A stretch of 38,981 bases of DNA from positions 1 through 38,981 of IMG/VR virus record IMGVR_UViG_3300042508_000227. One strand, given 5' to 3'. The position numbers and the translations under genes were made by a program. The stretch is from a virus. Of the stretch, positions 67 to 38,955 are shown one piece after another; the stretch's first letter is position 1, and each line of letters begins with the position of its first letter. The notes under the pieces were generated by a model. It was not told the origin of the DNA, made no database searches, and saw nothing but the letters and a program-made list of their open reading frames with translations.

Positions 67-95
67 TTGACATGGACATAGACTACTAGTAGGCT
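67..95 (+). promoter_or_regulatory. Putative sigma70-type promoter of the left cassette
   Basis: A perfect -35 hexamer TTGACA (67-72) lies 17 bp upstream of a weak -10 candidate TAGGCT (90-95). This sits about 85 nt before the ATG of the AAA+ gene. The -35 and spacing are good and the -10 is poor (3 of 6), so the call is tentative. It would let host RNA polymerase read the cassette independently of the phage polymerase. Confidence 0.35.
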
Positions 96-178
96 TCCGC
101 CTATGCGGTCCGTCCGCCCCGCCCACGTTGGGAGGGGTGGCCAACCCCGGAACGCACCATACATATAGGAGCCTGCCA

Positions 179-1105
179 ATGTCACCCGCCACCCTGTCGC
201 CCGTTCGCATTGAGTCCACCCCCGCCCCTGCTGTCCATGAGCAGGAGTCCGCGATGCTGCACCCGGCAGCAGATACCACGTTCAGGATGGCGGACGGACT
301 CCGAACCTATCTCGACCGGATCGCCGAGTCCGCGAACGGGGGCAACATTGAACACTTGCGGATTGTCGGCCCGGCCGGATGCGGAAAGACGGAATTGGGT
401 CTACAGATGGCCGCTATGGCGGGCCTGCCAGCGTTCGTGATGGACTGCTCCATCGTGCGTGAGCCCCGCGACTGGTTTGGATCGAGGACCGTCCGAAACG
501 GTGCGGTGCTGTGGCAGGATTCCGCGTTCGTGCGGGCCGTCACCCGTGGCCGTTGCGTCGTCATCCTCGATGAAGCCAACCGGGCAAGTCTGACTGTTGG
601 AAATGCTCTGCTTCCGCTGCTCGATCGTCGCCGTGCCTCACTGGTGGAGGAACGCGGTAGCGTGGTCCGAGTCGGGCCGGGGACCGTGTTCGTCGCCACG
701 ATGAATGAGGGAGCAGCGTATACCGGCACGTCGCCGATGGATGCTGCACTTCGGGATCGTTTCCCCCGCGTGGTGGAAATGACGTATCTCCCTTCCGACG
801 AGGAAACCGCCCTGCTGGTGGAGCGTACCGGAGTGGCTCCGGACGTGGCCGCTCGCCTCGTGGACATCGCCGGACGCACCCGCGATGCCAGCGGAAACGG
901 TGGAACGTTCACCCATCCGCTCTCCACTCGTCAACTGCTCGCCGCCGCTGCGGACTTCCGCATGACCGGCCCGGCGTCGCTCGTGTTCACCGTTGCGAAC
1001 CTGTACCCGTCCGAGGGTGGCAGCGAATCCGAGCGAGCCGGTATCGTGTCCCTGCTCATCGGCAAGTTCGGCCCGCTCACCGTCGCCGTGGAAGGGGGCC
1101 GCTAA
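179..1105 (+). CDS. MoxR/CobS-type AAA+ ATPase
   Basis: A 308-aa P-loop ATPase of the MoxR/AAA_5 kind. These enzymes use ATP to remodel a target, usually with a VWA-domain partner. Visible motifs are Walker A GPAGCGKT (about residues 64-71), Walker B VVILDEAN (about 127-134), a sensor-1 Asn in VATMNEG (about 172-178), an arginine-finger region ALRDRF (about 190-195), and a sensor-2-like STRQLL. The ATG at 179 is preferred to an upstream TTG at 128 because AGGAG (167-171) lies 7 nt before it. The stop overlaps the next start (TAATG), so the VWA gene is translationally coupled. CobS-like cobaltochelatase subunit and defence or counter-defence ATPase are both possible; the ATPase family is clear and the substrate is not. 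Codon use is strongly G/C-ending, unlike the phage core genes. Confidence 0.85.
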   Translation: MSPATLSPVRIESTPAPAVHEQESAMLHPAADTTFRMADGLRTYLDRIAESANGGNIEHLRIVGPAGCGKTELGLQMAAMAGLPAFVMDCSIVREPRDWFGSRTVRNGAVLWQDSAFVRAVTRGRCVVILDEANRASLTVGNALLPLLDRRRASLVEERGSVVRVGPGTVFVATMNEGAAYTGTSPMDAALRDRFPRVVEMTYLPSDEETALLVERTGVAPDVAARLVDIAGRTRDASGNGGTFTHPLSTRQLLAAAADFRMTGPASLVFTVANLYPSEGGSESERAGIVSLLIGKFGPLTVAVEGGR

Positions 1106-2886
1106 TGGGGAAAGCATCATGGCTTGAGAAGGGGACCGCCTACGCTTCGGCGTTAGAGTCCGCCACGGGCAGTCCGTCCGAAATGGTGGGCGACATGCTC
1201 GCCGGCGGCACGATCCAACCGCCGAGGATGGTGGAAGGGGAAGTGATCCGCGAGTGTGCTGGCCCGTTCATCCGCTCCGTCCTGTCCGCAGGTGCCGCCA
1301 CGGTGGCATCATGGACTGGCGAGGCGGTGGAGGCGGTGAATCGGTGGAGTGACAAGGGCACCGCCCTGGCTGTGAACGCGGAACATATCCTTGAACGTGC
1401 CGCGAGGCCGTCAGAGGCGGTGGACTTCGCAACGGGCCGCCTGCTGATCGGTGCCTCGCAGCGTAAATACCTGCGGGCAAGCGAACGCGAGGAGATCATG
1501 GGAGCGACCCTAGCGTATCGGCGTGCGGCCCAGGGCCGCCGCATCACGCGATGGGATGCGACCCGTTACGCTCGCGGACACCTTGCGTCCACCATCGCCA
1601 CAATCCGGGGACGCGAGGCGGTGCTATCCGACTGGCCCGGATGGGCAGGATATTTCAAGGCAGCGGAGAGCGTAGCCGCGACCCCGGCGGAGGCGGACGC
1701 GTTCGTTTCGGACCGGCAGGTACAACCGATCGTGCGTGCCGCGTTCGCTTTGGGGTGGCATGCGTTGAAGCGAACCCCGCTCAACCTGCCGCCGGACGTT
1801 GCCGCGATGGTCGAAGCCGGGAAGCCTCACCTATCGAAAGTTTGGAAGATGGGCGAGCATCTGGCCCGTGCATCGGCATGCATCGAGGCGATGGAAGCGA
1901 CCCTACCGCCAGGGCGGGAGGATCCGGAACCGAAGGCACCCGGAGCCGAGCCGGGATCGGAGCAGATTCCCGAGTCCGAAGCCGAGGACATGATCCCGGA
2001 TACTGACCGCTCGATCGAGGACGTAAAGGTTTCAGTAGAGCCCACGAAGCCAGCCGGGGCGGGACTCGAGGAGGGCAGTACGCGATATTCAGCGATTCGG
2101 GAGCGAGTCCGACCCGGGCGGCTTGGACTCGATCGGATGAAGGCGAAATCCGCTCCGCTGGTCGCCCAACTGAGGCGGCTTGCATGGGAGGGTCGGGACA
2201 CGTTCGACGTGGAACGTGGCCGGGAGCGTGGAGCCCTTGACGAAGGAGCACTGCATCGCTTGGCTCTCGATCATGACCCGCGAGTATTTGAGTCCCACGC
2301 CGACGAGGGACGGCAAGCCGTCGCCGTGTCTCTGCTGGTGGATTGCAGCGGATCCATGCGGTCCCGAACCGACACCGGCACGCGGATCGGGGATGCGAAG
2401 GCCGTAGCGTATGCGTTGCGGCAGGCATTCGCGGATAACCGCCGCGTTCGGATCACCTGCACGGGGCATGACGTGACCTACCGCCACGGACTCCACGTCA
2501 GCCTGTACCCGTGCCCCACCCCGGAGGACATCGCGGGACTCGAGGCGGGCGGAGACAACGCCGACGGGCACGCCATCGCTGCGGTGGCTCGTGAACTGGC
2601 AACGGCACCCGAGCCCGTCCGGCTTCTCGTGCTGCTGGCAGATGGTTACCCGTCCGCGAGGGGATACGGCAGCCTGTCAGCGAGTCAGCACGTCCGCCGA
2701 GTGATCGAGGCAGCGGAGCGGTGCGGGATTCAATTCCTCGCGTTGGGGATTGAAGGATGCCTGAGCCAACGGGTCGCGGAGAGCATGTACGGGCCAGGTC
2801 GCTTCATCAGCATCGGCAACGCACGCCGGGCCGGTCCGCTGCTGGTGCGGAAACTGTCCCGCATGCTGAAGGGCGGTGCAGCATGA
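1105..2886 (+). CDS. CobT-like protein with C-terminal VWA domain
   Basis: A 593-aa protein that is the natural partner of the AAA+ ATPase just upstream. The N-terminal two thirds are mostly helical with no motif I recognise. An acidic, Pro/Glu-rich linker follows (about residues 270-325), as in CobT. The last about 190 residues form a VWA domain with a MIDAS metal site: DCSGS (D413-S417), a DNADG segment (484-488) in the position of the MIDAS Thr loop, and LADGYP (D513). CobT/CobS pairs insert cobalt in B12 synthesis, but MoxR-VWA pairs also act in protein-complex assembly (RavA-ViaA, NorQ-NorD) and in predicted conflict systems. No cobalamin gene is nearby, so cobalt insertion is not favoured. 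It starts 1 nt inside the ATPase stop and ends with an ATGA overlap into the next small gene. Confidence 0.82.
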   Translation: MGKASWLEKGTAYASALESATGSPSEMVGDMLAGGTIQPPRMVEGEVIRECAGPFIRSVLSAGAATVASWTGEAVEAVNRWSDKGTALAVNAEHILERAARPSEAVDFATGRLLIGASQRKYLRASEREEIMGATLAYRRAAQGRRITRWDATRYARGHLASTIATIRGREAVLSDWPGWAGYFKAAESVAATPAEADAFVSDRQVQPIVRAAFALGWHALKRTPLNLPPDVAAMVEAGKPHLSKVWKMGEHLARASACIEAMEATLPPGREDPEPKAPGAEPGSEQIPESEAEDMIPDTDRSIEDVKVSVEPTKPAGAGLEEGSTRYSAIRERVRPGRLGLDRMKAKSAPLVAQLRRLAWEGRDTFDVERGRERGALDEGALHRLALDHDPRVFESHADEGRQAVAVSLLVDCSGSMRSRTDTGTRIGDAKAVAYALRQAFADNRRVRITCTGHDVTYRHGLHVSLYPCPTPEDIAGLEAGGDNADGHAIAAVARELATAPEPVRLLVLLADGYPSARGYGSLSASQHVRRVIEAAERCGIQFLALGIEGCLSQRVAESMYGPGRFISIGNARRAGPLLVRKLSRMLKGGAA

Positions 2887-2978
2887 AAAGCATGATTTAT
2901 GCGGTGGCCGTGGTGGCCGTGTTTGGGATACTTTCCATCCTTTCGCTCATCGCGTCACCCCTAGAACGCCGAAGATAG
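2883..2978 (+). CDS. 31-aa single-pass membrane peptide
   Basis: A short reading frame whose ATG overlaps the stop of the VWA gene (ATGA), implying coupled translation. The product is almost entirely one hydrophobic helix (residues about 4-24, rich in V, A, I, L) and ends in the basic tail PLERRR. Its layout (hydrophobic segment, Ala/Pro-Leu, Leu-Glu-Arg end) matches the 33-aa peptide at 3828-3929, suggesting related roles at the membrane. It is too short for family assignment; support comes from the overlap and the hydrophobicity. Confidence 0.5.
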   Translation: MKSMIYAVAVVAVFGILSILSLIASPLERRR

Positions 2979-2990
2979 TCGGCACCCTCC

Positions 2991-3043
2991 CCCGCTCACG
3001 CGGGGCGAGGCTCAGAGGCCCGGAACGTCCGGACCCCTGAGCC
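2991..3043 (+). promoter_or_regulatory. Tandem G+C-rich hairpins between cassette genes
   Basis: Two stem-loops follow each other: CCCCGC-TCAC-GCGGGG (2991-3006), and a longer imperfect stem pairing GGCTCAG (3009-3015) with CTGAGCC (3037-3043). No U-run follows, so this is not a classical terminator. It sits in the only real gap of the cassette, just before the 171-aa gene, and could tune read-through or mRNA stability. Confidence 0.4.
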
Positions 3044-3103
3044 CCGAGCATGAAGCCGGGACGGGCCGCGTGGCCCGAGGCACTAACGCTAGGAGAACAC
3101 CCG

Positions 3104-3619
3104 ATGCCATTCCAAAGCAGCCCGCACCCCGAGCCCGCCTACGTTCCGTGCGGCCCCGGCTCCGTCGTTTATGAGATCCCCGGCAACCCTGCCCCGAAGG
3201 GATCCCGCTTCGCGTTCGCTCGAGGACCGAAGGAGAACCCGCAGAACGTGTCCGACGTGGTTCTATCCCTGCCTCGTGCGTTCGTGGCGTCGTTCATCGG
3301 TTTCATGGCCGAGGCGGGCACGATTGACCGCGAGCCCACCGAGTCGGAAATGGACGCCATTATGCAGGCAATCGGAAGTATGCTGGTGGACACGCAAGCG
3401 GAAGTCCTCGAGCGAGTCGCGGGGCAACTGATCGACACCCTGAGCGACGGAGACAGGGACGCGGCATTTCGCCGGACCGTGGAGGGCGTCGCCGGTCGCA
3501 TCGTGAGAAAGGCAGTCCGGGAGGGCGAGATGAGTGCCGAGGAGGCCGCGACGCACGCGGAGATGCTCCGAAGGATGCTCGAGGAGCGGGCCAGGGACGA
3601 CGAAGGGAGCGAAGCATGA
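3104..3619 (+). CDS. Hypothetical 171-aa helical protein of the MoxR-VWA cassette
   Basis: Not recognised. The ATG at 3104 is chosen because AGGAG (3091-3095) sits 8 nt upstream; the frame is also open from 3050. The N-terminal 50 residues are Pro/Gly-rich and contain the segment NPAPKGSRFAF. The rest is predicted mainly helical, with an acidic C-terminal half (MSAEEAATHAEMLRRMLEER). No catalytic or metal-binding motif is evident. Its stop overlaps the next start by ATGA, so it belongs to the same transcript as the zinc-ribbon-like and membrane peptides downstream. It could be an adaptor or a target of the ATPase-VWA pair, but that is inference from position only. Confidence 0.6.
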   Translation: MPFQSSPHPEPAYVPCGPGSVVYEIPGNPAPKGSRFAFARGPKENPQNVSDVVLSLPRAFVASFIGFMAEAGTIDREPTESEMDAIMQAIGSMLVDTQAEVLERVAGQLIDTLSDGDRDAAFRRTVEGVAGRIVRKAVREGEMSAEEAATHAEMLRRMLEERARDDEGSEA

Positions 3620-3831
3620 CAACCCCAACCCCCGAGCCATGGCCGAGTCCCGGTCCCCTGTTCGCATCGGTGGACTGGTGCGACGCCTGCGGCGGCCCGC
3701 TTGGGCAGGACCGTATAGCCGTGCAGGCGTGTCCGTGCGATATCGCCACGGTGGACTCGGGCAACCCCGCTACACTGTGCCCCCCATGCGTGGCGGAACT
3801 GTCCGCCATGCTTGGAAGGAGCATCGCATGA
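3616..3831 (+). CDS. Small zinc-ribbon-like protein (71 aa)
   Basis: A 71-aa protein with two Cys pairs that could hold a zinc ion: C22-x2-C25 (CDAC) and C55-x2-C58 (CPPC), with an extra C39-x-C41 between them. The N-terminus is Pro-rich. ATGA overlaps join it to the gene before and the gene after, which is the main evidence that it is expressed. Zinc ribbons of this size often mediate protein or nucleic-acid binding; the specific role is unknown. Confidence 0.55.
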   Translation: MTTPTPEPWPSPGPLFASVDWCDACGGPLGQDRIAVQACPCDIATVDSGNPATLCPPCVAELSAMLGRSIA

Positions 3832-3929
3832 GTCCCCTTCTAGCGATTCTCGCCGGACTCATCCTCGCGTCTGTTCTCGTGCTGATGCTGGCACCGCTCG
3901 CGGCCCTGCTGGAACGCATCGACCAGTAG
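3828..3929 (+). CDS. 33-aa single-pass membrane peptide
   Basis: Last gene of the left cassette. Its ATG overlaps the previous stop (ATGA). The product is nearly all hydrophobic (residues about 3-27, L/A/I/V-rich) and ends LLERIDQ. It resembles the 31-aa peptide at 2883-2978 in size, hydrophobic profile and the Leu-Glu-Arg end, so the two may be diverged copies. An intrinsic terminator begins 32 nt after the stop. No function is assigned. Confidence 0.5.
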   Translation: MSPLLAILAGLILASVLVLMLAPLAALLERIDQ

Positions 3930-3960
3930 CCCCGCTCACCCATCCCATCCCGCCCCTAGC

Positions 3961-4002
3961 CCGCCCGGCGTCGCTCCAGCAGCACGTCGGGCGGTTCTCT
4001 TT
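3961..4002 (+). terminator. Intrinsic terminator of the left cassette
   Basis: CCGCCCG (3961-3967) pairs with CGGGCGG (3988-3994), the stem continues inward through CGT/ACG, and the U-rich tract TTCTCTTT (3995-4002) follows. It lies 32 nt beyond the last cassette stop codon, on the cassette strand. Confidence 0.6.
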
Positions 4003-4004
4003 GG

Positions 4005-4065
4005 GCAGGGCTCAGGCAGGGCTCAGGCAGGGCTCAGGCAGGGCTCAGGCAGGGCTCAGGCAGGG
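4005..4065. repeat. 11-bp tandem repeat array
   Basis: The unit GGCTCAGGCAG repeats with a strict 11-bp period: CTCAG starts at 4011, 4022, 4033, 4044 and 4055, giving five perfect copies before the array decays (CCGAG, then CTCAG at 4078). It lies between the convergent terminators. It has no spacers, so it is not CRISPR. It could be a slippage-prone repeat or a protein-binding array. Confidence 0.85.
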
Positions 4066-4176
4066 CCGAGGACAGGGCTCAGGGCCTCGCCGGAAGGGTC
4101 TACGCGCGCGCAAGGAAGAGAACTCTATATCTCTCTTTCACTCCGCCCGCACGCGCCCGCGATAGGTGGCCGATGC

Positions 4177-4201
4177 AAAAAAGGCTACCACAAGGGTAGC
4201 C
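4177..4201 (-). terminator. Strong intrinsic terminator of the phage late transcript
   Basis: Read on the minus strand, a perfect 7-bp stem GGCTACC/GGTAGCC with a 5-nt loop is followed directly by six Ts (the A-run at 4177-4182). It lies beyond the last minus-strand phage gene (stop at 4459) and faces the cassette terminator at 3961-4002. It would stop both host and phage polymerases before they run antisense into the cassette. Confidence 0.8.
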
Positions 4202-5348: not shown

Positions 5349-5678
5349 TCAGGATTGTACAAGGTCTCCGAGAATCTGGGAGATAGCCTTTGGATTATCC
5401 TGGACAAAGGCACTGATGGCCATTTCCAGAATCCTGACCTCACGCTCCTTCAGGACATCGTCCAGACCATAAAGGTCAGCGATGGCATGCAGGATCTCAT
5501 GCAACAGGGTGGCCGACAGCTCAGAGCCCTTCAGGGCCGGATGCAGGCGTATGACGGGGTTAGGCCCGGCACTGTATTCACCAAGGACCACCTCATCGGC
5601 CTCGTCGCCAGTAAGGGGTTCGGTCAACACAGGAACCCTAATAGCCCCAATCTTGAGTGTCAGGTTGACAGAACTCAT
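5349..5678 (-). CDS. Small HExxH zincin-like metallopeptidase
   Basis: A 109-aa protein with the zinc-peptidase motif HEILH (H60, E61, H64) in a helix (LLHEILHAIADLYGLD), and downstream acids (E80, E85) that could supply a third ligand. This is the core of ImmA/IrrE- or SprT-like minimal zincins, reduced in size. The N-terminal half is predicted beta-rich. Possible roles are cleavage of a host or virion protein, or a lysis-related activity, since no endolysin is recognised elsewhere. The start ATG overlaps the preceding stop (ATGA). The metal motif is clear and the substrate unknown. Confidence 0.7.
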   Translation of the reverse strand: MSSVNLTLKIGAIRVPVLTEPLTGDEADEVVLGEYSAGPNPVIRLHPALKGSELSATLLHEILHAIADLYGLDDVLKEREVRILEMAISAFVQDNPKAISQILGDLVQS

Positions 5679-7906: not shown

Positions 7907-9553
7907 TTACATCCAAGTTTTTGGACGGGGCTTTCGCCCAACCACATGCTGCATAAACTTCTTGAGCTCCCGGTCCAAAACGCGGGACCTTCGTTCAACC
8001 ATTTTCTTATCGACATCCTGAGCCATCCGCTCTGTCCAATAACCAACAGACATTGCAAGAGCATCGAGCCGGTCATCGTGAGCCAGGGCGCCCTTGGAGC
8101 GGGTCACACGGCTAAGCTGGTACATGAGCTGGTATTGCAGGGCCTTCTCACTTGGCATGTCTCTGGTGCTCAAGACATCATTCCTGACAACACTGGTGTC
8201 AATAACCAGCCTGTGTTGATTCAGGACCGGCTCCAAAGTATCAATAATCCGACGCTCTTTCTGAATCGAGTGCCGAACCTCCTCGATGGAGCAAGGGTGA
8301 GCCTTGGATAGAACAGGCTTCAGAAGTTCAGTGAACATGCCATCACCGAAGTTAGACTCAATGATGATCTGATTGACCTTCTGCTTCTTTGCGATCTGAG
8401 CCAGAGCCTCTAGGGATTGCGGAGAGTAACCCCCAGGGATTCCCCCGGCGGCCGTCACAAACAACGTCCCATTGAGCATCTTGGTGACCGCGTAGGCCGT
8501 CTCGTCAGTGCCCCTACCCGAAGGGTCAATAGCCATAACGGAGCCGTTATAGGGCACCCAGTCGCCTATAATCGATAGTGGGCGGAAGAAGCGATCCCCG
8601 TTGAACCCCACACAGATCAGATCCCTGTGTGCAAGGTCGGACATAGATCCCCAGACGAGCTTCTCTGGGGCCAACTCGATGTTGGTGTCCATAACAATCA
8701 GGTCGTTGATCTTCAGCGGGAACCTATCGGCATCACTCAGAGAGGTATCCAGCATGAACTGGAGAGCGAACCCAGAGCGTCCAAAGGAGAGCTCGCGCTC
8801 CATGAGCTCCGTCTCATCAAACCGATCTGGATCCACTGGCTGGCCAGACTTGATCTCACGGACCATGGGAGCCAAGCGCTCGCCATAGGCCACCCTCTGC
8901 TTCTCCTCAGGTCCCCTCGCAGGCCAGATCCTGATCTCATACCCACGGTCAGCCAGCAGGTTGTAGATCGAGTTCTCCGTCTGGGGAGTTCCCAGGTAGA
9001 TCACTCGGCCGTTGGGCTTCAGGACCGCATCGAACTCCTTGATGCTTTCCGCCAGCTTCTCCCGCATGGCCTGGGTCATCGAGTTGTTCTGCACCTCGAT
9101 ATCGTCGGCCACGATCAGGTCAGCACGGCTACCGGTGATCTGCGAGGTGATACCCTTGGAGGTAACCGAGGGGGCATGCTGGGCTGGTGCTGGTCCAACG
9201 TCAAAGGAGACCTTGGAGTACCTCTGGTTCTCCTTGGGACGGAGATGGGCCAGGATGGGCATGTCCTCGATCAGTCGCAGAGTGAACGTGCTGAAGTCGT
9301 CTGCACGCTGCTTGCTGGCAGAGACCACCAGGATGTTCTTGGCTGGATCCAGCAGAAGCTGGTGGCAGACAAAGGCACTGGTGACGTAGGACTTTCCAAC
9401 TCCACGGAAGGCTTCCACAACTGCACGGCGTGGCCCGTTCTGAAGATAACGGGCGATGTCGTACTGCACAGGAGTGGGCTTGGGAAGCCCAAGGTGTTTC
9501 CACACCATATGCAGAAAGTTACGGAAGTCCTTTAGCCGTGGATCAAGTTCCAT
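7907..9553 (-). CDS. terL: Terminase large subunit (T7 gp19-like)
   Basis: 548-aa DNA-packaging motor and nuclease. The ATPase half shows the P-loop FRGVGKS (about residues 49-55) and Walker B DLIVADDIE (about 145-153), with the coupling segment YLGTPQTE (about 186-193). The C-terminal RNase H-like nuclease shows the first acidic residue in AIDPSGRGTDE (D343), then IIIESNFGDG (about 397) and DDRLDALAMS near residue 515. Length and motif order match the T7 gp19 family. It overlaps the small-subunit gene by 11 nt. It would dock on the portal encoded at 26260-27834. Confidence 0.95.
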   Translation of the reverse strand: MELDPRLKDFRNFLHMVWKHLGLPKPTPVQYDIARYLQNGPRRAVVEAFRGVGKSYVTSAFVCHQLLLDPAKNILVVSASKQRADDFSTFTLRLIEDMPILAHLRPKENQRYSKVSFDVGPAPAQHAPSVTSKGITSQITGSRADLIVADDIEVQNNSMTQAMREKLAESIKEFDAVLKPNGRVIYLGTPQTENSIYNLLADRGYEIRIWPARGPEEKQRVAYGERLAPMVREIKSGQPVDPDRFDETELMERELSFGRSGFALQFMLDTSLSDADRFPLKINDLIVMDTNIELAPEKLVWGSMSDLAHRDLICVGFNGDRFFRPLSIIGDWVPYNGSVMAIDPSGRGTDETAYAVTKMLNGTLFVTAAGGIPGGYSPQSLEALAQIAKKQKVNQIIIESNFGDGMFTELLKPVLSKAHPCSIEEVRHSIQKERRIIDTLEPVLNQHRLVIDTSVVRNDVLSTRDMPSEKALQYQLMYQLSRVTRSKGALAHDDRLDALAMSVGYWTERMAQDVDKKMVERRSRVLDRELKKFMQHVVGRKPRPKTWM

Positions 9554-9773
9554 ACTTCAGCTCATTGTCCTCTTGGGGATCGAATGGCATAGCTTCATGC
9601 AACTTGAGAATCGGAGACCCGGCCTTAGCTGCAATGTCAATCCCATTGTCTTTGAGGAGCTGCCGGGCTACTCCCAGATCAGCAGCGGTAGCCTTACCTG
9701 CCTTGATCTTCTCAAGCAGATCGGCAATGATCGCTGTGTGCAGCTCCTCAAGAAGCTTCCGCTCATCAGCCAT
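9543..9773 (-). CDS. terS: Terminase small subunit (T7 gp18-like)
   Basis: 76 aa, helical, beginning MADERKLLEELHTAII, immediately upstream of and overlapping terL as gene 18 does gene 19 in T7. The segment KIKAGKATAADLGVARQLLKDNGI is characteristic of phage small terminases or packaging proteins. The ATG at 9773 with GGAG 6 nt upstream is preferred over the TTG at 9785. It is expected to recognise phage DNA and hand it to TerL. Confidence 0.8.
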   Translation of the reverse strand: MADERKLLEELHTAIIADLLEKIKAGKATAADLGVARQLLKDNGIDIAAKAGSPILKLHEAMPFDPQEDNELKYGT

Positions 9774-9774
9774 A

Positions 9775-10101
9775 TTAGGCTCCAAACCAAACGTTCAGGC
9801 CAGTGATGCTAGAGCTAGCGGTGACCTGAACGCGCATGTGGGGGAACAGGGGGACCAGATAATACGCAGAGGTCGTGGTCGAGATCGCGTGGCTGGTGGC
9901 ACCGGCCGAGGTAAGAGTAATGTCAACCCAAGGAGCGGAGGCCGAGAGGCGGCCCTGAACCCTGATGGTTCCGGTTCCGGCGGTGGCAGTGCCCATCTGG
10001 ACAACGCCATCCTCGTCAAAAATGAACGACGGGGTGAACGAGTCGCTGTTGCTAGTTCCGCTGGCAAGACTCAGATTGGAAACGGGATTGGTAACGCGCA
10101 T
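9775..10101 (-). CDS. Beta-rich conserved phage protein (108 aa), possible virion component
   Basis: Begins MRVTNPVSNLSLASGTSNSD; Ser/Thr/Gly-rich with alternating hydrophobics (VQGRLSASAPWVDITLTSAG), suggesting a beta-sandwich. No catalytic motif. Similar-looking small proteins occur between holin and terminase genes of T7-like phages, often as virion or head-decoration candidates. Role inferred from composition and position only. Confidence 0.6.
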   Translation of the reverse strand: MRVTNPVSNLSLASGTSNSDSFTPSFIFDEDGVVQMGTATAGTGTIRVQGRLSASAPWVDITLTSAGATSHAISTTTSAYYLVPLFPHMRVQVTASSSITGLNVWFGA

Positions 10102-10108
10102 GGTGTCC

Positions 10109-10339
10109 TCAGTTGTGAGTGGTGAAGAATTTGGTAAACAGACTGAAGGCAGCCGACACGACCGCCCCGATGATTGCCGAGCTTCCCATAAGGAAAGCCT
10201 TAGAGTGCTCTAGGGACCTGAGCCGCTGGTCATGGTCTTTGATCTGCTCCTCCTGAACCTTCTGAAGAGTGAGGAGAGTGTCCACCTTGCCCTCAAGGCG
10301 TCCCAGGGCCAGAAACAACGCTTCGTCGTGGGTACTCAT
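10109..10339 (-). CDS. Holin-like protein: coiled coil plus one transmembrane helix
   Basis: 76 aa. The N-terminal half is a heptad-like coiled coil (LGRLEGKVDTLLTLQKVQEEQ), and one hydrophobic helix follows (about residues 51-69, GSSAIIGAVVSAAFSLFTKF). This architecture matches XhlA/haemolysin-type and T7 gp17.5-like lysis proteins in position: just upstream of the terminase genes, where T7 has its holin. It overlaps the collar gene by ATGA. It would make the inner-membrane lesion at lysis; a second holin-like gene lies at 25306-25518. Confidence 0.6.
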   Translation of the reverse strand: MSTHDEALFLALGRLEGKVDTLLTLQKVQEEQIKDHDQRLRSLEHSKAFLMGSSAIIGAVVSAAFSLFTKFFTTHN

Positions 10340-10860
10340 GGAGATGGAGCCATCCCACTGAGCCGACTGCGGATGATGTAGTTCAGAACGATCGAAGGCT
10401 GAACGTTGACAGTGTCCACCGCAAAGTTGGTCCCGGTTCCACCGGCTTCATCAATAGCCAAGTCTTCCTGTCCACCGACTGCTCCCAGCACCTTCGAGTC
10501 AATCCCAGAACCAGCAGTGGTCACGCGATTGGCCGATCCGGTCGTGGTGTCCTTACCAATGATGACTCGTCCACGGAGGTCGGGGAGATTGAAGGTAGTT
10601 CCACTGGCAGAGCCGTAGGTGGTCCCGAGGACAGCAAACAAAGGAGCCTCAATATTCCTATTCACCGACTGGCCGTTGCACAACAGCCATCCCGCGGGAG
10701 GGGTTGGACCAGCAAACGGAAATACCACTCCAACAGGGATAGCCTGATCAAGACCCATGTTGGTGTAGGTGGTGTCGAGGGATGCTTGGAGTTCTGTAAG
10801 ATTATTAGAAGTTCGCAGAAGCCCGGTGGTCATAATGGGCTCGATGAAATTCAGAGGCAT
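10336..10860 (-). CDS. Phage tail collar-domain protein
   Basis: 174 aa with a clear Phage_Collar (PF07484-type) domain: IPVGVVFPFAGPTPPAGWLLCNG (about residues 41-63), then YGSASGTTFNLPDLRGRVIIGKD (about 82-104). Such domains occur at the ends of short tail fibres and in microcystin-dependent-like proteins and help bind receptors. AAGGA lies upstream of the start. Encoded next to the tail fibre, so probably a distal fibre or adhesin part. Confidence 0.85.
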   Translation of the reverse strand: MPLNFIEPIMTTGLLRTSNNLTELQASLDTTYTNMGLDQAIPVGVVFPFAGPTPPAGWLLCNGQSVNRNIEAPLFAVLGTTYGSASGTTFNLPDLRGRVIIGKDTTTGSANRVTTAGSGIDSKVLGAVGGQEDLAIDEAGGTGTNFAVDTVNVQPSIVLNYIIRSRLSGMAPSP

Positions 10861-10872
10861 GGTGTTTCCTTT

Positions 10873-12381
10873 TTAGCGGACCCGCTTGATGATTGCCCAG
10901 AAAGCCTGAGAAGACACATTTGGAGATCCGGCGCTTGTGTTGTTGATGGTTACCAGATTGATGCTCTGTCCAGTAGCAGTAACTGCCCCTGCAATAGAGG
11001 TCATGGGCCTGAACAAAAACAGATTTCCTGCAAGGAGGAAGTTATTGATCGGGCTGGCCGTGCTTCCAACCCCCTTCACTTCCGCGGTATACCAATATCC
11101 ACCGGTAGCCCCGGAAGTTGCATAGGCCCACGAGCAACTATAACTGGTAATTCCTGCGCCAGATGCTGGGGGCACTGTGCACAAAATATGCCAAACAGAT
11201 CCAACAGGGCCGTCGAATTCTGAACTGAGCATTGAGATATTTGTGGTGCTGCCCGGCGTGCACGATTCCGCAGTTCTTGCTTGATTTCCAGCCAAAATGA
11301 TGGTTGGGGCCCCAGCAACAGCTGCCAGCGCCGTGTCAACATAATCCTTATTGACAACATTAGTTGCAGCAAAGCCACCACCGGGAGTGTTCAGGGTAGG
11401 GGGGCTAGCAAACACCCCGTTCTGGGTATCAACCTTTGAGTTGAGCGTTGTCTGAAGATTAGTGACTTCTGAAATTGGGTGGGTGTGGGCAGCCGGGGTT
11501 CTGGTGTTCGTGAGTCTTGTATCATCCCCACGAACAACCTGAGAGATGCTTGCATTGGTCGAGGCAGCGGGAACATCCAGATAAGCGGATGATCCAAAAA
11601 TCGGCTTATTGCTGAGCTCATTCCAATCCGTAGAGCCAATGCCACGAGAAACACCAAAGTTTCGGACCGTGAGCGGAAGAGTGGTTGTTGGCTGGAAAGT
11701 GCTGTACAGCGTCAACGTGGTTCCATTGAGCTGATATGCGCTAACTGGGCTCTGAATAACGCCGCCCAAAACAACAATCAACATGTTGACATTGTTGCCA
11801 AGAAGCCCATTGAGAGTCACTTGGGAAGACCAAATGCCAGCAGAGATGTTCGTCCACTGGCCCGTAGTGATCGTGAATTCCCAAGTCTGTGGAGCAGCGC
11901 TGGCGGTTCCATATAGCTGGAGAGACTCGATATAGTTCCTAGTTACCACATCTTGCTGATTGATTGGGTTGGCAACATTGGAAATGCGCAGGCTGTTTGC
12001 ATCAAATGCCCCAGTTGCTGTGTTATAGCCAACGGCGTTTCCACCAGCGTCGGCGGCTTCCTGGCCGATATACAACAGTTGAAGAGCCGACTTATCTAGA
12101 TCAGAGGCAGTAAGAACAGAGCCATCACTAAAATCCACAACTCGACCAGCCACCGTATTCGGGGTCTCTCTTGCCACCTTGATAACATCGGAGTTGATTG
12201 GGGCGGTGGTGAAAGAGAGAGTCAGAGTTCCTGGGTTGGTGAAGCTATATCCAGATGTCTGAAGAATGTTGTTCTTGTAGACCTTGAGGTGCCCCTCTTC
12301 CAGATACCCGTCAATCTGGGTAATTGGGAAAGAATTATTGACCACCGTGGGTCCGGAGAAGACTTGATAAGAGTTTGACAT
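10873..12381 (-). CDS. Tail fibre protein with T7-type N-terminus
   Basis: 502 aa. Residues 1 to about 150 match the T7 gp17 N-terminal tail-attachment domain: NNSFPITQIDGYLEEGHLKVY, then KVARETPNTVAGRVVDFSDGS and LTASDLDKSALQLLYIGQEA. The middle is a Ser/Thr/Asn-rich shaft-like region (AAHTHPISEVTNLQTTLNSK recalls fibre repeats). The C-terminal about 150 residues differ and probably carry host specificity. It attaches to the tail tube proteins and recognises the host. Confidence 0.9.
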   Translation of the reverse strand: MSNSYQVFSGPTVVNNSFPITQIDGYLEEGHLKVYKNNILQTSGYSFTNPGTLTLSFTTAPINSDVIKVARETPNTVAGRVVDFSDGSVLTASDLDKSALQLLYIGQEAADAGGNAVGYNTATGAFDANSLRISNVANPINQQDVVTRNYIESLQLYGTASAAPQTWEFTITTGQWTNISAGIWSSQVTLNGLLGNNVNMLIVVLGGVIQSPVSAYQLNGTTLTLYSTFQPTTTLPLTVRNFGVSRGIGSTDWNELSNKPIFGSSAYLDVPAASTNASISQVVRGDDTRLTNTRTPAAHTHPISEVTNLQTTLNSKVDTQNGVFASPPTLNTPGGGFAATNVVNKDYVDTALAAVAGAPTIILAGNQARTAESCTPGSTTNISMLSSEFDGPVGSVWHILCTVPPASGAGITSYSCSWAYATSGATGGYWYTAEVKGVGSTASPINNFLLAGNLFLFRPMTSIAGAVTATGQSINLVTINNTSAGSPNVSSQAFWAIIKRVR

Positions 12382-36312: not shown

Positions 36313-38694
36313 TTATGCGAAGAAGTAATCGGCCTTCATCAATTCGGCCACGTCCAGAGTTCCCATCTTGGGAGGATCCGGCAGGCTGTAACCTCGGGGG
36401 AGATAGGCCTGCATCTCAGATTGTAGCGTCTTCAAGATTGGCTGGGAAAAGATCTCGGAAGAAACTTGGCGAATTGCTGTTCCCATAACAGCGGCATCGG
36501 CAGGACACACACCGAAGCTGTCATGAATACATGAGAAAGATTCGATGCCGCACGATGCCCCCAGATTTACAGACTTGAGGAGGATGCTGGCGTCAATCGA
36601 GTGGACCACATTGGGACTGATCGCATTGACGTTGCGGGACATTGACAGGTCTTCTCCGTCAACCAGAATTCGATGCTGGCGGAGAACTGATCCGATGGTG
36701 GTCTTCACCACGATTCGGTTCAGCTTCTTGTATCCCTGCTCCACTAGGAATCCTGAGGGTGCACTCCATCGGATCGGTATGCCAGCCTCAACATGAACTC
36801 TGGCACACTTCTTCAGCCAGTCCATGGCACCAACAGCAGCCACGACGATCTCATTGATCGCTTCCCAGATCTTGTCGGTCAGGTAGTTGATATTGATCCA
36901 CAGTCTGTCCTTCTCAAACGGACGGTTGCCGGTAGACCTGGCCTTCTCGAGGTACCACTCTCGAATGTACTGCCTGGATGAGAACCTAGTGAGTCCGTAG
37001 GGCAGGCACATCACGACACGCTTGGTTGTCTTTCGGTCAATTCCAAAAGCCAGCCACTCTTGGTCTGCCTGCGTGCCGGACTCCAGCATCTTCTGAATGA
37101 CGCGGTCCGCAACAGTCCCGTAGATATCCTGAGGAGAATCCGTTGGAACACAGTTGGTGGCCAAGGCTCCAACAGGATCTCTCAGAAGCAGGCTGAAGAT
37201 TTGCAGGCCATTGTTTGATCCATCGAGGTGAATAGGCAGGCTGGATTCAATGCCTGGGTTATCGTGAACCTTGGCCCATTCAATGCAGAACGCCAAAAAG
37301 GACCATGGCTTATCGGCCTTGGTCCAGAACATCTCCGAGAGCGGATCACGTCCAATCTTTAGAATCAGCTTATGGTTTTCTTGGATGAACTGGATGCGCT
37401 CACTGAAGGAGACTTTGTCAAGCCCCCAGCAGTTGGCTCCATGAATAGCAAGCCAGGACATCCCATTGTCATCCACAGGCTTGCCCTTGGCGAAGGTGAG
37501 CAGAGCCCGCTGCCAGTCAGCTCCCTGATTGTTTAGAAATACGGGCTTGGGGTAGACACGGCCCCGGAAGTCCAGTTCTTGGGGAAAGTGGAATGGAACA
37601 GACCCGTACTTATCTGCCAGCCAGATGGTCTTGGAAACGGCAATTCGCTTCGATCGGAGACACTCGTTTTCAAAGTGAGTGCGGGCGGCTTCCTTTCGGT
37701 ATTGCCTGCGGGATTCGGCATTGGTGTCAATATCGACGGGCTTTGATGGGATTGGGATAAGGTCCTTCCCAGGCATGTCTCCGATAATCATGCCAGTATC
37801 CCAAGCATGCTTGATGGCCTCAAGCATAGGCCCATTGATTTTCCAAGCAGTGTTCTGAATATGGTTGACACCCTGATAGACATCAGGCATCGGTACCTTA
37901 TCCAAGGTCTGTAGGTACCTCTTCGAAGTAGCCTTGACCAGAGGACGACGACCAAAGGCAACCCCTAGATATCCCCCGGCCCACACTGAATCCCAATCCT
38001 GGGGAGCGGTGACCATAGGCATGTACACAGGAGCCATGATCTCAGCAGCAGCATGGGACTTGTCAAGCCAGTCCAGGAATTCATCGCTGGCCCGAACCAG
38101 CGTCATGTCCTTGCCCCACATGTTGGTCCGGTTGATGACCTCGATGACCCCGGTGTTCTGCTTCATCAGTTCGATGCACACAAGGCCAAGGGCGACTCGG
38201 TCTCTAGGGGCCCATGCAGGAAGGCTCATCTTGTGCATCCTTGCGGACTTCTTGATGAACCTGGTTCGGGTAAGTTCTCCGGGCTGCTTACTGACCAGCT
38301 TCATCATCTTGGACCACCACCTAGGGTGTTCCTTACGAAGCTTGCGGAACCGCATCTCGTCTTCTAGAAGGCGGCCGATATGAGCAGCGAGGGAGTTGAT
38401 GGTGCGGACAGAAGCAATGCCGTCGATGACGGCACGGCAGGTGATCATCGCAACAATAGGTACTGGAATCTGCTCCATGATGGGCAGAATCCGATGCCTC
38501 CGTCCAGGAGAATTATTGGCCTTGTGAATCCAGTCGGAGACAGCCTTGGTCAGTTCATGAACGGCTCTCTCCAGAACTCGCTGACCTGCGGTGGAGCAGG
38601 ACTCAATCTTTGCTGACCTACACTTCGCCATCCTGGAGCGATAGCGTGATACTCCCAACCGAGCCATCTCTGCCTCAAGGTCGGTCTGCTTCAA
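36313..38694 (-). CDS. Phage single-subunit DNA-directed RNA polymerase (T7 gp1-like)
   Basis: 793 aa, about 90 shorter than T7 RNAP (883), mainly in the N-terminal domain. Catalytic motifs: A SLPIHLDGSNNGLQ (D491, T7 D537); B KTTKRVVMCLPYG (K558, Y566; T7 K631, Y639); C CIHDSFGVCPADA (D725, T7 D812). It ends DYFFA, like the essential FAFA foot. The promoter recognition loop region (about 656-680) differs from T7. A TTG start at 38694 is supported by AGGAG 6 nt upstream and by family-like LEAEMARLG before the next ATG (38667), which also has a GAGG. It drives the leftward middle and late genes. Confidence 0.95.
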   Translation of the reverse strand: MKQTDLEAEMARLGVSRYRSRMAKCRSAKIESCSTAGQRVLERAVHELTKAVSDWIHKANNSPGRRHRILPIMEQIPVPIVAMITCRAVIDGIASVRTINSLAAHIGRLLEDEMRFRKLRKEHPRWWSKMMKLVSKQPGELTRTRFIKKSARMHKMSLPAWAPRDRVALGLVCIELMKQNTGVIEVINRTNMWGKDMTLVRASDEFLDWLDKSHAAAEIMAPVYMPMVTAPQDWDSVWAGGYLGVAFGRRPLVKATSKRYLQTLDKVPMPDVYQGVNHIQNTAWKINGPMLEAIKHAWDTGMIIGDMPGKDLIPIPSKPVDIDTNAESRRQYRKEAARTHFENECLRSKRIAVSKTIWLADKYGSVPFHFPQELDFRGRVYPKPVFLNNQGADWQRALLTFAKGKPVDDNGMSWLAIHGANCWGLDKVSFSERIQFIQENHKLILKIGRDPLSEMFWTKADKPWSFLAFCIEWAKVHDNPGIESSLPIHLDGSNNGLQIFSLLLRDPVGALATNCVPTDSPQDIYGTVADRVIQKMLESGTQADQEWLAFGIDRKTTKRVVMCLPYGLTRFSSRQYIREWYLEKARSTGNRPFEKDRLWININYLTDKIWEAINEIVVAAVGAMDWLKKCARVHVEAGIPIRWSAPSGFLVEQGYKKLNRIVVKTTIGSVLRQHRILVDGEDLSMSRNVNAISPNVVHSIDASILLKSVNLGASCGIESFSCIHDSFGVCPADAAVMGTAIRQVSSEIFSQPILKTLQSEMQAYLPRGYSLPDPPKMGTLDVAELMKADYFFA

Positions 38695-38912: not shown

Positions 38913-38955
38913 GCGACTAAGGGGCGGCAGAGCGACTAAGGCAGTGCGACTAAGG
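38913..38955. repeat. Three direct copies of GCGACTAAGG at the right end
   Basis: GCGACTAAGG occurs at 38913-38922, 38932-38941 and 38946-38955. The core CTAAGG also occurs at 38747 and 38814, and three times in the gap near 5021-5080. T7 carries arrays of a related heptamer (CCTAAAG) next to its terminal repeats. These copies may mark closeness to a physical end. Confidence 0.7.

Follow-up and report, generated by a model that had tools for sequence, protein, structure and literature searches.

What does a MoxR-VWA gene set do on a T7-like phage, and does the set belong to the phage at all? The question is posed by the IMG/VR virus record IMGVR_UViG_3300042508_000227, analysed here over its whole stretch of 38,981 nucleotides (hereafter the window). 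Six genes at 179-3929 on the plus strand oppose the minus-strand genes of the phage. An original prediction, made from the sequence alone, had described them as a self-contained transcription unit and as a "moron". The promoter-like element and the membrane partners of that unit are upheld; "moron" in the sense of recently gained cargo is not. The cassette is almost certainly a conserved, phage-resident module. Its core is a conserved operon encoding an AAA+ ATPase, a VWA protein, a small transmembrane (TM) peptide and a third protein (U3), which occupies a fixed slot behind a recurring host-type promoter element.

A conserved operon in four T7-like phages

All six predicted genes were found as open reading frames (ORFs) on the plus strand. 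They encode a CbbQ/NorQ/MoxR-like AAA+ ATPase (179-1105; 308 aa from ATG, with an alternative start possible at the TTG at 128), a VWA protein (1105-2886; 593 aa), the 31-aa single-TM peptide TM1 (2883-2978), the 171-aa U3, also called U171 (3104-3619), a 71-aa zinc-ribbon-like protein with a CxxC...CxxC pattern (3616-3831) and the 33-aa single-TM peptide TM2 with an LAPLAALLER motif (3828-3929). The tight couplings noticed earlier are present as TAATG at 1103-1107 and ATGA at 2883, 3616 and 3828. U3 is the sole uncoupled gene, separated from TM1, which ends at 2978, by a gap of 125 nt. The remainder of the window encodes, on the minus strand, RNA polymerase, primase/helicase, DNA polymerase A, head-tail adaptor, capsid, tail and terminase. 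The T7-like assignment is confirmed by the single-subunit RNA polymerase and by T7-type genes for replication, packaging and structure.

A second phage, G001 (IMG/VR 3300016667_000323, 40077 bp), carries all six genes with order and location unchanged. Identity between G001 and the window is 90% for terminase and 78% for RNA polymerase, and 70% for the AAA, 45% for the VWA, 36% for U3 and 44% for the zinc-ribbon-like protein, which has the same cysteines in G001. Both TM peptides are present, and a 37-aa peptide of G001 shares the TM2 motif. A scan with an AAA alignment yielded 54 viral contigs, and a VWA gene directly follows the AAA gene in 35 distinct loci (one gut phage record counted; several are near-copies). 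Four of these loci are T7-like, namely the window, G001, L027 and L045, and the last two carry the AAA-VWA-TM peptide-U3 set. The zinc-ribbon-like protein has no homologue in L027 or L045. Among isolated phages, the window VWA matched only two gut phage records and the L027 VWA matched none. Several other phage AAA-VWA pairs (L030, L043, L051 and L022) lie among replication and repair genes encoding polymerase, RecA or Sak4-like proteins and a Cas4-like nuclease.

The membrane partners named in the original prediction are conserved to different extents, TM1 in all four T7-like phages and TM2 in the window and G001. TM1-type peptides of 29-44 aa overlap the VWA stop by 4 nt in four of four T7-like phages, the overlap reading ATGA except in G001, where it is GTGA. 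A hydropathy listing revealed no such TM peptide after the VWA in any of 30 other AAA-VWA loci with downstream sequence. A U3 profile built from the window and G001 recovered the proteins of L045 (1.6e-7) and L027 (1.2e-6) but no further protein from the 10,908 ORFs of all loci collected in the analysis. The reciprocal profile from L027 and L045 recovered the window and G001. On this profile evidence, the homology of U3 across the four phages is low yet real. U3 is predicted to consist of a small beta part followed by long helices (model predicted local distance difference test, pLDDT, 71.7). Matches of U171 to DUF1465 and MotA were weak and far below cut-off, and both candidates were rejected.

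A fixed slot anchored by terminase and RNA polymerase genes

The slot is anchored by the genes for the terminase large subunit (7907-9553, minus strand; PHROG 38, 5e-117) and the T7-like RNA polymerase (36313-38694, minus strand; PHROG 414, 2e-228). On the terminase side, the arrangement is convergent in the window, G001 and L045. A cassette directly divergent from the RNA polymerase gene is seen in L027, L112 and L114, the latter two being further assemblies of the L027 phage at 99.7-99.9% identity. Two operator-like GGCAnnGCGACTA repeats lie at 38926-38952 on the strand of the AAA gene (plus), in the stretch that separates the RNA polymerase gene from the contig end. Repeats in the same orientation are found in G001, L027 and L045, confined to the region of the slot; in all four phages they lie either in the interval from cassette to RNA polymerase or at the corresponding contig end. 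Given the cassette orientations and the GGCAnnGCGACTA positions, the two sides meet on a circular map. The slot between terminase and RNA polymerase is fixed across the four T7-like phages. Most terminase relatives stop before the slot, and L017, with ~4.9 kb beyond terminase, has no AAA or VWA match there. A tyrosine integrase is encoded upstream of the RNA polymerase in G001, adjoining the slot (L023, ~174-1260).

Probable long co-inheritance rather than recent capture

The four T7-like AAA proteins form one clade (support 96/85) nested in viral AAAs, and two planctomycete chromosomal pairs fall outside. These pairs (L124 7048-10566 and L125 7019-10534) are the closest bacterial relatives in the sample; their AAA has a different N-terminus and they lack U3. 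Scans of bacterial genomes showed nothing close among the matches listed. The best match listed in one scan (34%) was itself a virus-like contig. Samples of 385 alphaproteobacterial and 392 planctomycete species plus 369 others gave four matches at 1e-25, one of them this same contig. A few alphaproteobacterial and planctomycete genomes encode T7-like RNA polymerases, and no cassette was present in the six neighbourhoods examined.

The predicted difference in base composition holds for the window, with 65.7% GC in the cassette against 54.3%. It is not a general trait, since the L027 cassette is AT-richer than its own phage, the opposite contrast. For this reason, a recent acquisition read from the GC contrast was ruled out. 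Between the window and G001, synonymous divergence (dS; Nei-Gojobori) is 1.06-1.46 for AAA, VWA and U3, against 1.28 for terminase and 1.44 for RNA polymerase, all values being near saturation. Equal synonymous divergence of cassette and core genes therefore argues for a resident module without recent capture. The ratio of nonsynonymous to synonymous divergence (dN/dS) is ~0.25 for AAA, 0.39 for VWA and 0.62 for U3, compared with roughly 0.04-0.3 for most core genes, although some structural genes are also fast-evolving. Taken together, these sequence comparisons suggest long co-inheritance. From the rise in dN/dS from AAA to U3 we infer a variable, client-facing side of the module.

Two explanations of the locus would make the linkage itself misleading. 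Repeats at the contig ends could point to an assembly chimera. The IMG/VR contig 3300042477_000275 matches the window identically from base 6 through the junction; this contig may stem from the same population, which makes the diverged G001, with the same junction, the independent test of linkage. Both answer the concern about physical linkage raised with the original prediction, and a chimera has a negligible probability. Host DNA flanking an integrated prophage would fit the GC contrast of the window and the G001 integrase. It is nevertheless very improbable, as four diverged phages share the set and its junction elements are conserved, the RNA polymerase gene is the immediate neighbour of the cassette in three assemblies, dS resembles that of core genes, and the sampled bacterial genomes gave no close homologue among the matches listed. 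The cargo reading is contradicted by the shared slot in the four diverged phages, by the position of the AAA clade inside viral AAAs and by the core-like dS.

A MoxR-VWA pair matching NorQ/CbbQ and CobT/NorD

The window AAA protein has an AAA+ core (Walker A, GPAGCGKT; Walker B, LDEANR), a CbbQ/NorQ-type C-terminal part and an adjacent VWA partner with the DxSxS of the metal ion-dependent adhesion site (MIDAS), as in MoxR-VWA pairs. It matches Pfam AAA_5 (5e-23), CbbQ_C (7.5e-7) and PHROG 249 (8.6e-39). Apart from midasin, NorQ (2.5e-21) and CbbQ (3.4e-20) were on top among profiles of solved structures, with CobS at 1e-9. According to the alignment, the window protein lacks an N-terminal domain of ~75 aa found in G001, L027 and L045. 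This domain appears winged-helix-like by eye and matched no solved structure.

The VWA protein consists of a helical N-terminal part and a region matching Pfam CobT_C (1.8e-8). Its MIDAS is intact (DCSGSM at residue 413), as it is in all four T7-like members. Searched against PDB profiles, a profile of 23 viral VWA proteins matched CobT (8.8e-26) and NorD (4.3e-22), and the score against the NCBIfam CobT model was 26 bits at a cut-off of 759. The top fold match of the AlphaFold model (pLDDT 78.8) was NorD in the NorQD complex 9qhd (E 2.4e-9). Judged from these motifs and profiles, the module very probably uses MoxR-VWA remodelling chemistry.

Promoter element, terminators and RNA structure

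A candidate host sigma70-type promoter lies at 67-95 on the plus strand, with TTGACA at 67-72, a spacer of 17 nt and TAGGCT. The element TTGAC[A/G] precedes the AAA start by 112 nt in the window, 109 nt in G001, 101 nt in L027 and 84 nt in L045. In all four phages it is followed 16-17 nt on by a weak -10 partner, TAnnnT or CAnnnT. The promoter claimed earlier is weak when taken alone and did not appear in the list of a consensus promoter scan of the window. It is credited because the element recurs in all four phages, the single sites being unremarkable. A search of the window for promoter repeats of the phage RNA polymerase returned only GC-rich coding matches. Past its cassette, L027 has two extra plus-strand units (9200-11052) with TTGACA-type promoters, similar leaders and terminators, forming an array in which small genes follow host-type promoters.

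A strong terminator-like hairpin follows the cassette at 3961-3994 on the plus strand (z -4.9 for 3950-4008), but the tail UUCUCUUU makes a poor T tract, giving a short U tract only. An intrinsic terminator of the opposing phage transcripts, conserved in G001, lies at 4177-4201 on the minus strand and consists of GGCTACC-loop-GGTAGCC followed by T6. The non-coding gap between TM1 and U3 has strong RNA secondary structure, with z -3.1 in the window (2979-3103, plus strand) and z -4.7 in G001 (L004, 3598-3737), and has no Rfam match. This structured gap may tune relative expression.

Proposed function and alternatives

We suggest, largely by analogy, that the module encodes a remodelling machine that is expressed from a host-type promoter and acts on a host membrane complex. 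This is the likeliest function, put forward tentatively. The AAA hexamer would exert a pull on its VWA adaptor, in the manner of NorQ and NorD; the TM peptide would anchor the machine to the inner membrane, and U3 could serve as a client-specific adaptor or effector. If host RNA polymerase transcribes the cassette, expression would occur early in infection or from a prophage. A host membrane client, met early or during lysogeny, is proposed with equal reserve. The complex remodelled for the benefit of the phage might, for example, be a receptor, a route by which rivals enter, or a complex of respiration or defence. Perhaps, and with less assurance, the set represents a distinct class, a MoxR-VWA machine that is encoded by the phage, tethered to the membrane and equipped with a dedicated third protein, for early host takeover or superinfection control in an uncultured T7-like lineage.

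Several points weigh against this proposal. Action on a host membrane complex is drawn from analogy, and the timing of expression depends on a -35-like motif. TM1 peptides are alike in position and hydrophobicity without clear sequence similarity. U3 has no known fold, with no Pfam match above cut-off and no Foldseek match for its model. The dS values, being near saturation, leave the divergence argument less sharp.

Superinfection exclusion, i.e. an anti-competitor weapon expressed from a prophage, is an unlikely alternative that would account for the integrase beside the slot in G001, the promoter-like element and the high dN/dS of VWA and U3. MoxR-vWA conflict systems have also been predicted (PMC7159879). 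The window proteins had no PADLOC match though, bpMoxR remained under cut-off, no effector domain was seen, and no integrase was found in the window or in the two partial contigs. A virion assembly chaperone maturing tail or head proteins, again unlikely, has viral precedents in ATV p618/p892 (PMC4124505) and in a proposal for group 2.2 jumbo phages (PMC7824862). Transcription opposite to the structural genes, the host-type promoter element and the adjoining RNA polymerase in circular order argue against it. In addition, no structural gene was a consistent neighbour across 19 further viral pair loci, and this reading leaves the TM peptide unexplained. An auxiliary cobaltochelatase, CobS-CobT borrowing host CobN, has been proposed for viral cobST (PMC8651126), and both the CobT_C match and CobT as best match of the viral VWA profile favour it. 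We consider it improbable. The AAA matches NorQ and CbbQ far above CobS, the VWA score falls far short of the CobT equivalog cut-off, and TM peptide and U3 would lack a role. No CobN was found in the four T7-like records (two partial), although the host may encode CobN. The families listed for 89 genes neighbouring other viral pairs include no B12 family, and the earlier remark that no B12 gene is near the cassette is upheld. Fixed partners, the membrane peptide and the host-type promoter element point away from B12. Should the module remodel a host membrane complex, it would be a new kind of phage tool for host takeover.

Comparison with known systems

The claim of an unrecognised set was too broad in one respect. 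AAA-VWA pairs are already published in tailed viruses as cobST (PMC8651126) and have been described in haloviruses (PMC7911831). What is new in the present set is its T7-like setting, along with the TM peptide and U3. Viral MoxR-VWA pairs are widespread and usually labelled cobalamin genes on little evidence, and the compact four-gene set is suited to expression and testing. With viral cobST (cyanophage and haloarchaeal virus CobS/CobT; PHROG 249), the window shares an adjacent AAA and VWA in a tailed virus and an AAA in PHROG 249, to which it adds the T7-like phage, the TM peptide, U3, the opposite strand and the host-type promoter element.

NorQ-NorD, which serves iron insertion into cNOR, shares the CbbQ/NorQ-type AAA with a VWA partner, NorD being the top VWA fold match, and small membrane proteins in the same cluster. 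For NorQD, whose target cNOR is membrane-bound, the AAA ring is proposed to twist its VWA partner at a membrane target, and the small membrane proteins NorE and NorF are encoded next to the pair (PMC13036017). The phage module differs in being phage-borne, in a U3 without known counterpart and in a VWA ~20% identical in the aligned part. No NOR genes, including norB/norC, are among the annotated phage genes, a scan that left some small ORFs outside. RavA-ViaA is a MoxR-VWA pair linked to a respiratory membrane complex (PMC10585395); it shares the pairing, and neither protein is among the matches listed for the AAA or VWA profiles.

The jumbo-phage MoxR-vWA with a metallopeptidase shares the chaperone pair, whereas no HExxH motif was found in the window VWA. 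ATV p618-p892, a MoxR ATPase with a VWA partner for which a role in virion maturation is suggested, is likened by published description alone; ATV is an archaeal spindle-shaped virus and p618 a virion component. As for ternary conflict systems (VMAP, iSTAND, FtsH, beta-propeller), U3 gave no Pfam or fold match and bpMoxR was below cut-off. A weak IetA match in PADLOC (1.6e-4, 33 residues) concerned the L027 AAA only.

Further features of the window

A 109-aa protein with a HEILH motif is encoded at 5349-5678; it had no PHROG match at 1e-5, is 81% identical in G001 and has a similar protein in L045. Seven GGCAGGGCTCA copies directly follow the cassette hairpin (4004-4083) and TGCACCCCTGGAC repeats occupy the left contig end (1-39), both of which are possible landmarks of genome ends.

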